Assembly (NCBI GenBank): GCA_030836185.1
Contig: JAURQH010000052.1
Coordinates: 1 to 64,000 of the forward strand
Length of the DNA: 64,000 nucleotides
From: Planctomycetota bacterium
GTDB taxonomy: Bacteria; Planctomycetota; Planctomycetia; Planctomycetales; Planctomycetaceae
Direction of reading: 5' to 3'
Shown here: in pieces, positions 4,061 through 10,442 of the stretch
How the letters are laid out: every line of letters starts with the position of its first letter
How positions within the stretch are numbered: the first letter of the stretch is position 1
Made by a program: the position numbers and the translations under genes
Notes under the pieces: model-generated
The model's input: the letters and a program-made list of their open reading frames with translations, nothing else
Databases searched by the model: none
What the model was told of the DNA's origin: nothing

Positions 4061-5275
4061 TTAGTTCAAGGTTTCGGAGCGGGGATAAGTCCCTAAAATT
4101 TCTAAACGGACCGCCCCCTTTTCAAGTTGATCCAATGTTTTTCGTACTTTGGGGTCGTTCTCATGCCCTTCAAAATCGAGGAAAAACAGATATCCCTGTT
4201 CCTCTCCCCTCAAAGGGAATGACTCGATCCAAGTCAGGTTCAGCTTATTTGTCTTAAAAATATTCAACGCATCCGACAAAGAACCCGGTTCGTGAGGGAT
4301 CTGTAAAAGTAACGCCGTGCGATCAGAACCAGTCGGTTTTTGAAGATGATCGCCGATCACGGCAAAGCGAGTCACATTATGTTTGTTATCTTCAATTTTC
4401 TCGGCCACGATTTGAAGGTCGTATTCTACAGCCGCCTGGCGACTGGCCACCGCAGCGGCACCCGGCTTCTCGCGAGCCAATTGTGCAGCGGCCGACGTGC
4501 TGGTCACTTCGATCAATCGGGCATCAGGCATGTTACGAGCCAACCAGTCGCGACATTGCGACAAAGCTTGTGGCTTTGAATAGATTTCGGTGATTTCGCT
4601 CCGAGGACAACGCGACATCAAATTGTGATGAATGCTGACCAACACCTCACCACAAATCCGTAAGGGAAGCCGAGTGAACATATCGAGAGTATCGACAATG
4701 CGACCATCAGTGCTGTTTTCAATGGGAACGAGCCCGAAGTCTGCATGGCCACGATTCACTTCTTCAAACACAGAGGCAATCGTGCTCACGGGAATCAGGT
4801 CAGCACCTTTTCCGAAGCGTTCCAATGCCGCAAAGTGGGTGAAACTGTATTTTGGTCCCAAATAAGCGACTCTTGTCAACTTAACGCCGCTCTTCGCAAA
4901 ACTCAGAATGTCCCGAAAAATGGACCGCACAATTTGGTCGGGGAGAGGACCGGGATTGGCTTCTCCCAATTCGTTCAACATCGAGTCGTCTGCATGCGGA
5001 TCGTAAATCGAAGCTTTTTTCTCGGGACGTTTGCTGTAAAGCCTCTCCGTCAGTTGAGCACGCTTGTTGATCAGCTTGAGAATCTCTTTATCAATGCGTT
5101 TGAGATCCGCGTCGAGCCCCCCCCCATTACGGCTGGAACTGGTGGTTCGAGTTCCTTTATTGGTGGCCCGTTTCTTGGCAGACGACTTCGAAACAGGCTT
5201 TTTCTTGGTTGTGGATGCCTTCTTCGCCGCTTTACGAACCGTGGTTTTCTTTTTTGTTGTACGTTTTTTTGCCAT
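4061..5275 (-). CDS. pheA: prephenate dehydratase with chorismate mutase and ACT domains and a Lys-rich N-terminal tail
   Basis: P-protein of phenylalanine synthesis. About 404 residues from the ATG at 5275. Order: a very basic Lys/Ala/Thr tail (about residues 1-50, KKxxKK repeats resembling histone H1 C-termini), an AroQ-type chorismate mutase helix starting [16 protein letters not shown], a prephenate dehydratase domain from [12 protein letters not shown] through PIENSTDG to the catalytic TRF triplet in NVTRFAVIG, and an ACT regulatory domain with EPGSL and the ESFP counterpart of the Phe-binding ESRP motif. Phe feedback control is therefore likely. An upstream TTG at 5293 is a less likely start. 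The tail is the odd feature: it is not needed for either reaction and could bind nucleic acid or act in localisation. Confidence 0.92.
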
Positions 5276-5523
5276 CGAAAGCGGTCCGGTCAATCGTAGA
5301 TAACTGATTCCACTCCATTGGCTTACGCTATATTGTGCGTTATTTGGTCACGCCCTCAGTGTCGTGAGTCATGCTTTGTAATGAGCCGGGCAACCAAAAT
5401 CAAGGAGCCGATTTCAAGCGATCAAAACCACTGCCACAATGACACCGACGCTCGTTTTAACTCTCATCTCACCAGTTGCCATTTTGGCACACCCCAAAAC
5501 TTAACACGATTCCAAAAACGCTC

Positions 5524-5562
5524 TATCCCTATACACAACAGAAACTTACAGGACTCCTATCA
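5524..5562. promoter_or_regulatory. element shared with the blaI upstream region
   Basis: By-eye alignment with 50814-50851 gives 31 identities over 39 columns with one gap. Shared blocks are TATCCCT, AACAGAA, CTTAC and a CT-rich end. It lies 14 bases upstream of the sigma-54 site. AGAAACTTAC inside it resembles an ECF-type -35 box, but its role is unknown. Confidence 0.4.
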
Positions 5563-5575
5563 TATCGCAACAAAG

Positions 5576-5592
5576 TTGGCACACCCCTTGCA
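5576..5592 (+). promoter_or_regulatory. sigma-54 (-24/-12) promoter of dnaK
   Basis: The sequence TTGGCACACCCCTTGCA matches the RpoN consensus TGGCAC-N5-TTGC(A/T). The invariant GG (5578-5579) and GC (5590-5591) are exactly 12 bases apart, start to start. Transcription would begin near 5603, leaving a leader of about 95 bases before the dnaK ATG at 5700. Enhancer sites were not identified. Confidence 0.75.
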
Positions 5593-5699
5593 TTAGTAAA
5601 ACAGCACGCTGATCGGTCTGGCCGATTGGCAGTCAATTCAATCAAGATCACAAGACAATAACCCAACTCACGATCCTGAAAGATCGAGGAGCATTAAAA

Positions 5700-7610
5700 A
5701 TGGCAGTTGAATCAGAAAAAATTATCGGCATCGACCTCGGGACAACGAACTCCGTGGTTTCTGTGATGGAAGGTGGCGAATCCAAAGTGATCGCCAATCT
5801 TGAAGGAAACCGGGTCACTCCCAGTGTTGTCGCTTTCACGGAAAAAGAGGAAACCCTTGTGGGCGAGCCGGCCAAACGCCAAGCCGTCACCAACCCCCAT
5901 AACACGATCTATTCGGTCAAGCGATTTATGGGGCGTCGCCACAAGGAAGTTCAATCTGAAGAAAAAATGGTTCCCTACGGAATCGTTGGTGGTGACGAAG
6001 ATTACGTCAAAGTCGACGTCAACGGTAAGGAATACACACCGCCTGAAATCTCGGCTTTGATTCTTCGCAAACTGAAAGAAGCCGCGGAAAGCTATCTCGG
6101 TCACAAAGTCAACAAGGCCGTGATCACCGTTCCAGCATACTTCAATGATGCACAACGTCAGGCGACTAAAGACGCCGGACAAATCGCCGGGCTCGAAGTG
6201 GCTCGTATCATTAATGAGCCGACCGCAGCCGCACTCGCTTACGGATTACAGAAGAAGGAAGAAGAGAAAATTGCCGTCTTCGACTTGGGCGGCGGTACGT
6301 TCGATGTCTCGATTCTGGAAGTCGGCGATGAGATGGTGGAAGTATTGTCCACAAACGGCGACACCCATCTCGGTGGTGACGACTTCGACGAAGTCCTGAT
6401 TGGACACATTGCCGACGAATTCAAGAAAGAGCAGGGAATCGACCTTCGCTCTGATGCGATGGCTTTACAACGACTGCGTGAAGCTGCTGAGAAAGCCAAA
6501 AAGGAACTCTCCAGTTCCGCTTCAACCGATATCAACCTGCCGTTCATCACGGCCGATGCCTCGGGAGCCAAACACCTCCAACTGTCGATCTCTCGATCAG
6601 ACTTTGAAAAATTGATCGATCCACTTGTTGAACGTTGCCGCGGGCCCGTCGAAAATGCCCTGAGCGACGCCAAGCTGTCACCCGGCGACATTGACGAAAT
6701 CGTTCTTGTGGGTGGTTCAACACGAGTTCCCAAAGTTCAGGAACTCGTCAAGAAAATGTTCGGTAAAGAGCCACATCGCGGCGTGAATCCCGATGAAGTG
6801 GTTTCGATTGGTGCCGCCATTCAGGGTGGTATTATCGCAGGCGATGTGACTGACGTTGTCCTTCTCGACGTCACTCCTCTCTCTCTCGGTATCGAAACCG
6901 AAGGGGGTATCTTGACGAAACTCATCGAACGGAACACAACCATTCCGGCCACCAAGAAAGAAACATTCTCGACAGCCGCCGACAACCAAACAGCGGTCAC
7001 AGTGCGAGTGTTCCAGGGTGAACGGCAGATGGCCAACGACAACCGTCTCCTCGGACAATTCAACCTGGACGGCATTCCTCCCGCTCCGCGCGGCATGCCG
7101 CAAATCGAAGTCGCTTTCGACCTCGACGTGAACGGAATTTTGAATGTCTCTGCCAAGGATGTGAAATCTGGCAAGGAACAGTCGATCAAAATCGAAGAGT
7201 CCAGCGGACTTTCCGAGGATGAAATCGAACAAATCCGCAAAGATGCTGATGCTCACGCCGAAGAAGACAAGAAAAAACGTGAACTGGCCGAAGCCAAAAA
7301 CATGGGCAACACGCTGGCTCATGAAGCTGAGAAGGCACTCAAGGAACACGCCGAAAAAGTGGACGAGGGTTCCAAGACGGCTATCGAAGCTGCGGTCAAG
7401 AAAGTTCAGGAAGCCGTGGAAGGCGATAATGTCGACCAGATCAAATCGGCGACCGAAGAACTCTCGACGACGATGCAGGCCATGGCCGAACACTTTCAGG
7501 GAAGCCCTGAAGGGGAAGCTCCTGAAGGTGCGGAACCAGCCGGAGCCACAGCAGACACCGGCGGCGGAGATGACGACGATGTCATTGACGCTGAGTTTGA
7601 GAAGAAATAA
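5700..7610 (+). CDS. dnaK: chaperone DnaK (Hsp70)
   Basis: ATP-dependent Hsp70 chaperone acting with DnaJ and GrpE in the cytoplasm. The 636-residue product shows the three Hsp70 signatures in the ATPase domain: [12 protein letters not shown] near the start, [12 protein letters not shown] near residue 195, and [13 protein letters not shown] near residue 340. The substrate-binding domain follows ([13 protein letters not shown]), then a helical lid and the acidic C-terminus [14 protein letters not shown] strong GAGGAG lies 12 bases before the ATG. The gene sits alone behind a sigma-54-type promoter and is closed by a hairpin terminator before clpB, so it is probably monocistronic; no dnaJ or grpE is adjacent. 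Confidence 0.98.
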
Positions 7611-7790: not shown

Positions 7791-10442
7791 ATGGCATTTC
7801 AATTTGAAAAACTGACGACCAAAGCCCAAGAAGCTCTGCAACGAGCCCAAAGTTTTGCGATTGAGCAAGGACACCAACAGTTACAGCCCATTCATCTTCT
7901 CAAAGGCTTAGTCGATGAAACCGATGGGATTGTGCGTCCGCTCTTCCAAAAGATGGGAGTCGATACACAACAGTTGCAGACAGTTTTAGAGAATGAATTG
8001 GCCCGACTTCCGAAAGTCTCCGGCAGCGATGCGCATCCCCAAGTCTCCCCAGCAGGAATTCGTGTGCTGGAAGCCGCGCAAAAAGAAGCCGACGCGATGC
8101 AGGACGAATTCGTCTCAACCGAGCATCTGCTTCTGGCCCTTACAAAGGTCGATGACCAGGCACAACGGCTGCTCAAAATGCACGCCGTCACAGAAGATGA
8201 TTTAAAAGCGGGTCTCAAAACCGTACGAGGAAACCAAAAAGTGACCGACCAACACCCCGAAGACAAATATCAAGCGCTCGAAAAGTACGGCAAGGATCTC
8301 GTCGAACTCGCGCGATCAGGAAAGATCGATCCGGTCATCGGTCGCGACAAAGAGATCCGTCGCGTCATTCAGGTTTTGTCTCGACGCCGCAAAAACAACC
8401 CCGTCCTGATCGGTGAACCGGGTGTCGGTAAAACCGCCATCATCGAAGGCTTGGCACACCGCATTGTGCTAGGCGATGTGCCTCAAGCTCTCAAAGATAA
8501 ACGAGTCATCGCTCTCGACATGGGAGCCCTCATCGCGGGAGCGAAATTCCGTGGTGAGTTCGAAGACCGCTTGAAGGCCGTCCTCAAAGAAGTCGAAGAG
8601 GCCGCCGGTCAAATCATCCTCTTCATCGACGAACTCCACACTGTCGTCGGAGCAGGAGCCTCCGAAGGCTCGATGGATGCCTCCAACTTACTCAAACCAG
8701 CCTTAGCGCGAGGTGAATTGCATTGCGTCGGCGCAACGACGCTCGACGAATACCGCATGCACATCGAAAAGGACGCAGCTCTCGAACGTCGCTTCCAACC
8801 GGTCAAAGTGAACGAACCCTCCGTCGAAGACACCATCGCCATTCTGCGTGGACTCAAAGAACGCTACGAAAAACACCACAACATCAAAATCAAAGATGCA
8901 GCACTCGAATCAGCAGCGACACTCTCCGACCGATATATCACGGATCGATTTTTACCCGACAAAGCTCTCGACCTGGTCGACGAAGCCGCCGCCCGTGTCT
9001 CGATGGAATTGCATTCCGTACCAGCGGAAATTGATGAAGTACAAAGACGCCTGACTCGTCTTGAACTTGCCGCCCGCCAACTCGAAGAAGAGCAGGAAGA
9101 GCACGCAGAGAAAGAACGGGAAGAGATCCGCCTCGAAACCGAACAACTCAAACAAAAACTCGCCTCACTCAAAGAACAATGGGAAGCGGAGAAGCTCGGC
9201 ATCGGCGACGTCCAATCACTGCGGGAAGAACTCGAAAACGTCGAGCGCGATTACTCACAACTCGAAGCCGGCATCCGTGAGAAACAAGCCTCCGGTCAAC
9301 TTGTCGATGAATCGAATTTCCAGAACCTATACGAGTTGGACAGCCGACAGAAACAATTACGGACTCAAATCGAGCAAGAAGAAGCCATCAGCGAGCAAGC
9401 CGCCGCCGAAGCCGCATCCGAGGAAGAACCCAAACAGAAACTGTTGCGAACCGAGGTTGGCCCCGAAGAAATCGCCTCCGTGGTCTCCGATTGGACCGGC
9501 GTCCCCGTCACACGCATGTTGCAAACAGAGAAGGACAAGCTCCTCAACATGGAGGTCGGCATCCACCGTCGTATGATCAATCAAAGTGAGGCGGTGACTG
9601 CGGTCTCGAACGCCGTTCGTCGTTCTCGTTCTGGTTTACAGGATCAAAACCGCCCCATTGGATCGTTCATTTTCCTCGGCCCCACGGGAGTCGGCAAGAC
9701 GGAACTCTGTAAAGCACTCGCCGAGTTTCTCTTCGACGACGAACGCAACATGGTCCGCATCGACATGAGTGAATTCATGGAGAAACATTCGGTCGCCCGT
9801 TTGATCGGTGCGCCTCCCGGATATGTGGGTTACGAAGAAGGGGGCAAACTGACTGAAGCCGTCCGGCGACAACCTTATTCCGTGGTGTTGCTCGACGAAG
9901 TCGAAAAGGCACACCGCGACGTCTTCAACGTCTTGCTTCAGGTGCTCGATGATGGTCGCTTGACCGACTCTCACGGCCGAACAGTCGATTTCAGCAACAC
10001 CATTATCGTGATGACCTCCAACATCGGCAGTCAGATGATCATGGATTTGGCAGGCACACCAGAAGAAGACACGATTCACGACCGTGTGCTGGAAGTTTTG
10101 CAACGCGAATTCTTGCCGGAGTTCCTCAACCGCGTTGACGACACAATCGTTTTCCATCCACTGGGCCGCGATGAAATCCGCCAGATCGTCGATCTCCAAC
10201 TGACGCAACTCGAAAAGTTGCTCCAAAACAACGGCTACGAACTCGAAGTGAGCGACGAAGCCAAGACGTTACTCGCCAACGAAGGTTACGACCCGGCATA
10301 CGGAGCACGACCTCTCAAGCGGGTGATTCAAAACCGGTTGCAGAACTCATTGGCCAACGAGATTCTCGCCGGCACATTACCGGAAGGCTCAACCATCAAA
10401 ATCGACGCCGCCCCTGATGGGTTTATCTTTACAAATGAGTGA
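7791..10442 (+). CDS. clpB: ATP-dependent disaggregase ClpB
   Basis: Hsp100 disaggregase that works with DnaK to rescue aggregated proteins. The 883-residue product has the duplicated Clp-N domain (about 1-150), a first AAA+ module with Walker A GEPGVGKT near residue 207 and Walker B LFIDELH, a long Glu/Lys-rich coiled-coil middle domain (about 410-530) typical of ClpB rather than ClpC, and a second AAA+ module with GPTGVGKT near residue 630 and [11 protein letters not shown]. The C-terminal D2-small domain includes [11 protein letters not shown]. It has no ClpP-binding tripeptide that I can see. It follows dnaK by 180 bases on the same strand but is separated by a terminator, so it should have its own promoter; no CIRCE element is visible. 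Confidence 0.97.

Follow-up and report, generated by a model that had tools for sequence, protein, structure and literature searches.

Promoters recognised by sigma-54 are silent without an activator, and their consensus reads TGGCAC...TTGC with GG-N10-GC. The closest described systems are those of the NtrC-family sigma-54 two-component type, which likewise combine a sigma-54 promoter, upstream dyads and an activator composed of receiver, AAA+ and Fis-type helix-turn-helix (HTH) domains, and in which the kinase gene lies beside the activator gene, as it does in G000, the genome studied here. Our locus differs from them in its targets, which are the main Hsp70/Hsp60 chaperone genes, in its dyad, TGCCA-N3-TGGCA with a 45-bp tandem spacing at dnaK, and in its kinase, whose only Pfam domains are HisKA and HATPase. 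An NtrC-type activator is also tied to heat shock in the Myxococcus HsfA/HsfB heat-shock two-component system; the targets differ, that of HsfA being the lonD protease gene and not the main chaperone set, and HsfA is also mentioned as binding other promoters.

A further likeness is found in Chlamydia, whose phylum is related to the planctomycetes. CtcB/CtcC of Chlamydia also pairs a kinase with an NtrC-type regulator, and hrcA and grpE are sigma-54 targets (PMC7482065, PMC8762339). Chlamydia departs from our locus in possessing hrcA, in a reported tandem sigma-66 promoter, and in a CtcC that has no domain for DNA binding (PMC7482065, PMC8762339). Within the planctomycetes themselves, sigma-54 promoter enrichment of a chaperone cluster comprising the GroEL, IbpA, GroES, GrpE, DnaJ and DnaK COGs was predicted earlier (PMC12316311, 2025); in the accessible text of that report the enrichment, derived by COG and promoter matrix, concerns Planctomycetia and to a lesser extent Phycisphaerae, and the chaperone genes are assigned neither an enhancer motif nor an activator nor a gene-by-gene architecture. 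Sigma-54 control of planctomycete chaperones is thus already predicted, and what we add are the dyads and a candidate activator. A search of titles and abstract openings in one open library returned no mapped planctomycete dnaK start.

We analysed a 64-kb stretch of G000 (the window) that carries dnaK, with the following features around its start:

5432..5444, + strand: UAS2, the distal one of two enhancer-like dyads, TGCCACAATGACA, placed 45 bp before UAS1
5477..5489, + strand: UAS1, the proximal one, TGCCATTTTGGCA, placed 99 bp before the sigma-54 site
5576..5592, + strand: predicted sigma-54 (RpoN) -24/-12 promoter of dnaK, TTGGCACACCCCTTGCA, an exact consensus match conserved in the class
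5603..5699, + strand: predicted dnaK mRNA leader, its start deduced from the -12 position
5700..7610, + strand: dnaK (Hsp70), 636 aa (PF00012, E 2.5e-259)
7791..10442, + strand: clpB, 883 aa, downstream of dnaK (Pfam AAA_2, ClpB_D2-small, Clp_N)

The original prediction, made from this stretch alone, had placed an RpoN -24/-12 site with GG/GC spacing and a leader of 95 bases before dnaK. This site is confirmed at 5576-5592 as an exact consensus match, with GG at 5578-5579 and GC at 5590-5591 separated by ten bases; the leader would measure 97 nt, close to the length first proposed, if C5591 is taken as -12 and +1 lies near 5603. TTGGCACACCCCTTGCA, separated by 107 bases from the dnaK ATG (at 5700), shows zero mismatches to YTGGCACRNNNNTTGCW and is the sole exact match within the window. 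Window matches to the consensus at up to two mismatches number 10, against 10.1 in shuffles, and the weaker ones are therefore attributable to chance. Across the 5.16 Mb genome, YTGGCAYRNNNNTTGCW has two exact matches, one of which is the dnaK site, and 75 matches when one mismatch is allowed, compared with 82 for the reversed control. As there is no genome-wide excess of this site type, the dnaK site alone is a lead and no proof of a promoter; we take it as one because it is conserved among relatives.

Two other sequences surfaced in these searches. The second exact YTGGCAYRNNNNTTGCW match, TTGGCACACATGTTGCT (G000:C28:72499-72515, - strand, locus L074), lies beside short ORFs of unassigned function, with no dyad within 170 bp. 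TTGGCCTGAGACTTGCA is present in 11 identical copies in G000 (e.g. C1:47580, C3:87, C15:136666), three of them at most 200 bases from a contig start, as expected for a repeated, perhaps mobile, element.

Conservation of the GG/GC pair across relatives had been set beforehand as the check on the original prediction, and the pair is retained. From 59 listed genomes of the class we obtained 55 dnaK upstream regions belonging to 54 genomes, one of which has two copies; G006, G011, G013, G015 and G018 were left out, no dnaK with upstream sequence having been found. On a sigma-54 score with hand-set weights based on the consensus, 35/55 regions carry a site of at least 0.9 within 250 bp; neither the reverse strand nor reversed text yields any, and shuffles average 0.08. 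At a score of at least 0.8 the count rises to 49/55 (controls: 4 on the reverse strand, 3 in reversed text and 2.6 in shuffles). Among the exceptions, the dnaK of G043 scores 0.70. In G046, which has two dnaK copies, the second (L039, G046:C133) differs from the first in lacking both sigma-54 site and dyad, so that the two may be regulated separately.

We performed an open dyad scan upstream of the sigma-54 site in 83 regions scoring at least 0.78, covering the 82 with more than 60 bases upstream. It gave one result, TGCCA-N3-TGGCA, in 41 regions and in none of the shuffles; at no more than one mismatch this dyad is present in 73 of the 83 regions, which had been chosen for their sigma-54 score. 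Without such selection, 84/103 regions contain it at up to one mismatch (45/55 dnaK and 39/48 gro, that is, groEL-groES...grpE operon, regions), against a shuffled rate of 0.6% per region, and dyad and sigma-54 site occur together in 44/55 dnaK and 38/48 gro regions. The dyad is exact in 28/55 dnaK regions, and at dnaK and the gro operon alike it mostly precedes the sigma-54 site by 80-160 bp. The idea that dnaK is tied to an enhancer-binding activator thus gains independent support from an upstream enhancer-like dyad that had gone unnoticed in the original prediction.

At dnaK the dyads come in tandem. Two of them, each with at most two mismatches, stand exactly 45 bp apart in 26/55 regions and 38-48 bp apart in 38/55, and the spacing is kept though neither the inter-dyad sequence nor the distance from the promoter is constant; 50 shuffled sets contained no 44-46 bp pair. 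A 38-48 bp pair is found in 4/48 gro regions. Distances between dyad and promoter are helically phased (period 10.8 bp, R 0.54, n=81), a value matched by 0 of 2000 jittered sets and still at R 0.51 in a thinned set of 75, the rows behind both phasing and tandem being related by descent and hence not independent events. Such phasing is the expected trace of an activator acting by DNA looping, and the dnaK site thus has a phased upstream site of the kind an activator would use. No other pair of dyad and sigma-54 site was found in the 64 kb, even at a score of 0.8 and two mismatches, and the window scan gave clpB no pair of its own. We consider it very likely, judging from the DNA, that the dnaK promoter and its enhancer are functional.

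Dyad and sigma-54 site also precede a chaperone operon. Cpn10 and GrpE searches located groES and grpE on the same strand, within a few kb of each other. A groEL-like gene precedes this groES and has a sigma-54 site in front of it, which in G000 is ATGGCACAGTGATTGCA, at C104:199034. Of 50 groES-grpE regions obtained, 48 were analysed (L202, at a contig edge, and L210, unrecognised, were left out), with groEL recognised by sequence features, and the gro counts given above for dyad and sigma-54 site are undercounts, some groEL starts being misplaced and the strong sites of G015, G026, G036 and G045 missed. At a second groES of G000, on contig C72, an exact dyad is followed after 121 bp by a weaker site with a score of 0.84. 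A wider regulon in G000 was rejected: 0/9 other exact dyads (besides those of dnaK and the C72 groES) have a site scoring at least 0.8 within 260 bp. A wider dyad list was considered for the first of its 54 places. Of the 75 sigma-54-like sites, 32 were examined for dyads, 30 loci at up to two mismatches and C30:15155 and C104:199034 at up to one. In Rhodopirellula baltica, Cpn60, Cpn10, GroEL, DnaJ and GrpE have locus tags from RB8966 to RB8974, and dnaK, groEL, dnaJ, grpE and clpB are heat-induced (PMC2754498).

The arrangement reaches beyond the class. In a set of named genomes (80 loci, with L288, L321 and L352 left out), dyad and sigma-54 site occur together in 9/12 Planctomycetia-like dnaK regions and 5/6 dnaK regions of other Planctomycetota, the class labels of named MAGs being assigned in this analysis, partly on identity. 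All six of the latter, two Candidatus Scalindua among them, have an exact dyad, at 109-113 bp, and 0/6 have a 38-48 bp pair. In dnaK regions of other phyla the dyad was found at up to one mismatch in 0/59, and a sigma-54 score of at least 0.9 or at least 0.8 was reached within a 320-bp stretch in 2/59 and 7/59, respectively.

We then considered which protein might read the dyads. G000 has nine strong Sigma54_activat proteins, which imply the presence of RpoN; a text search of the fetched loci, a small part of the genome, gave no RpoN box. One of the nine, encoded at G000:C11:4915-6321 (L058), has the make-up of an NtrC-family enhancer-binding protein (EBP), with a receiver (PF00072), an AAA+ domain with GAFTGA (PF00158) and a Fis-type HTH (PF02954); solved relatives of the NtrC-family type are 4l4u, 1ny5, 3dzd ('NtrC family'), 1ojl (ZraR) and 5m7n. 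It alone among the nine is a reciprocal best match in 9/9 comparison genomes, the other eight reaching at most 5/9; these genomes comprise five class members and four other Planctomycetota, and some of their EBP sets are incompletely parsed (L247, L273, L382, L402, L410, L415, L419 and L434 were not parsed, and one G063 place was left out). A match at 51-100% identity is present in 58/59 class genomes, the next ones standing at 47% or less among the matches listed. The neighbouring gene in G000 encodes the histidine kinase described above, and an ORF identified as kinase-like solely from its H-box adjoins the C11-type gene at 31/59 loci. The adjoining kinase is larger and different in G038 and G056, and by eye those of G059 and G061 seemingly have an N-terminal membrane segment.

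In four other Planctomycetota the recognition helix of L058 is 94% identical to that of G000, compared with 57% for the AAA+ domain and 39% for the receiver. Three family-f3 genomes (G038, G047 and G056) have a changed helix, NISERT, and dnaK dyads of two mismatches; at gro, G038 and G047 have dyads with a single mismatch. G004, G022, G028, G046 and G050 have the helix GERTLYRK, yet their dnaK dyads also show two mismatches. As a control, whole HTH_8 identity in other Planctomycetota is 63% for L058 and 59-61% for the family of L065, another EBP of G000 (two genomes). This control tempers the assignment, as do the poor dyads of genomes whose helix is canonical, and on the correlation of phyletic distribution and helix conservation we rate L058 as the activator of the dnaK dyads only a little above an even chance.

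Autoregulation of the candidate activators was rejected, no consistent dyad or sigma-54 site being found upstream of them. Two individual dyads were seen: G000 has one with one mismatch near the C11-type gene, and G044 (L254) has an exact one, TGCCAAAGTGGCA, at the start of that gene, a possible case of autoregulation with no consistent counterpart elsewhere.

Should promoter and dyads be functional but read by a different EBP, that EBP might be the receiver-less, PspF-like L059 (G000:C90:26929-27429) or another of the genome's own EBPs. L059 has reciprocal best matches in 10/10 sampled class genomes and clear matches in 3/3 named ones, and its recognition helix, NRNTLHKKI, resembles that of NtrC, whose half-site also ends in CCA-N3-TGG. 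It was our first choice and was set back, as no clear ortholog is found in six other Planctomycetota genomes, all of which have an exact dnaK dyad: its best bits there are 262-286, where class genomes give 396-421 and an unrelated phylum gives 298, and in the comparison genomes it is reciprocal best in only 5/9. We regard a reader other than L058 as rather unlikely. In G000 and three other genomes, L059 has GAFTSA instead of GAFTGA.

From the sites and their arrangement we infer the following mechanism. dnaK would be transcribed from a sigma-54 promoter driven by an EBP, which would bind the two tandem 13-bp dyads at 5432-5444 and 5477-5489 and contact RNA polymerase at 5576-5592 via DNA looping. 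Dyad and sigma-54 site also stand before the groEL-groES...grpE operon and another groES, so that a small Hsp70/Hsp60 sigma-54 regulon may exist, and this would explain chaperone induction in a lineage without HrcA. The C11 NtrC-type regulator is the candidate EBP, to which the adjoining histidine kinase would pass a stress signal by phosphorylation. The likeliest signal is heat or misfolding, because the same genes are heat-induced in R. baltica (PMC2754498). As a whole, this combination of sigma-54 promoter, tandem dyads, C11 activator and chaperone regulon is the best explanation we can offer, and a reasonably probable one.

HrcA/CIRCE control has little footing at this locus. The original prediction had seen no CIRCE and doubted HrcA/CIRCE control, and both points hold: neither a CIRCE element (0 in the 64-kb window at up to three mismatches) nor an hrcA gene (HrcA in 0/59 class genomes, the control being positive in 7/14) was found. 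dnaK might still be transcribed mainly through a different sigma factor, either the housekeeping one or a heat-shock one that has escaped recognition, with the sigma-54 start secondary. Promoters are often paired, and heat regulation of rpoN itself is unnecessary in sigma-54 systems. A precedent exists in the tandem sigma-66 and sigma-54 promoters of Chlamydia hrcA-grpE (PMC8762339), and the R. baltica rpoN is unchanged on heat shock (PMC2754498). On the other side, no sigma-70-type match was found in 5290-5760, where 0.7 would be expected, although planctomycete housekeeping promoters may differ from that consensus, and most of the genomes examined have kept the dyads and the phased sigma-54 site, a sign that these matter. 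We think a secondary role for the sigma-54 start doubtful. That the sigma-54 match arose by chance in an intergenic region, a reading favoured by the lack of a genome-wide excess, is rejected as extremely improbable, being contradicted by conservation (35/55 strong), dyads and phasing.

With its main chaperones under sigma-54, a planctomycete would have to relay a specific signal in order to raise Hsp70/Hsp60, whereas model bacteria use circuits built on sigma factors or repressors. Most of the planctomycete genomes examined share the arrangement, a sign that folding genes are switched on in an unusual way, by an activator, and the dyads, the spacing rule and a named candidate regulator make planctomycete folding-stress sensing directly testable. 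A bolder and decidedly speculative extension is that sigma-54/two-component control of Hsp70/Hsp60 is ancestral in Planctomycetota, replacing HrcA and sigma-32 with one NtrC-type regulator and one dyad phylum-wide, and that Chlamydia CtcB/CtcC is a relic of this circuit.

The leader and the upstream neighbour of dnaK were also inspected. The predicted leader has a 5' hairpin and folds no better than shuffles (z -0.90), and no Rfam match was obtained in it at the gathering score; an RNA thermometer or riboswitch was rejected on these grounds. The ORF at 4061-5293 (- strand), which by eye resembles chorismate mutase/prephenate dehydratase, points in the opposite direction to dnaK, and the intergenic region that the two have in common holds both dyads.
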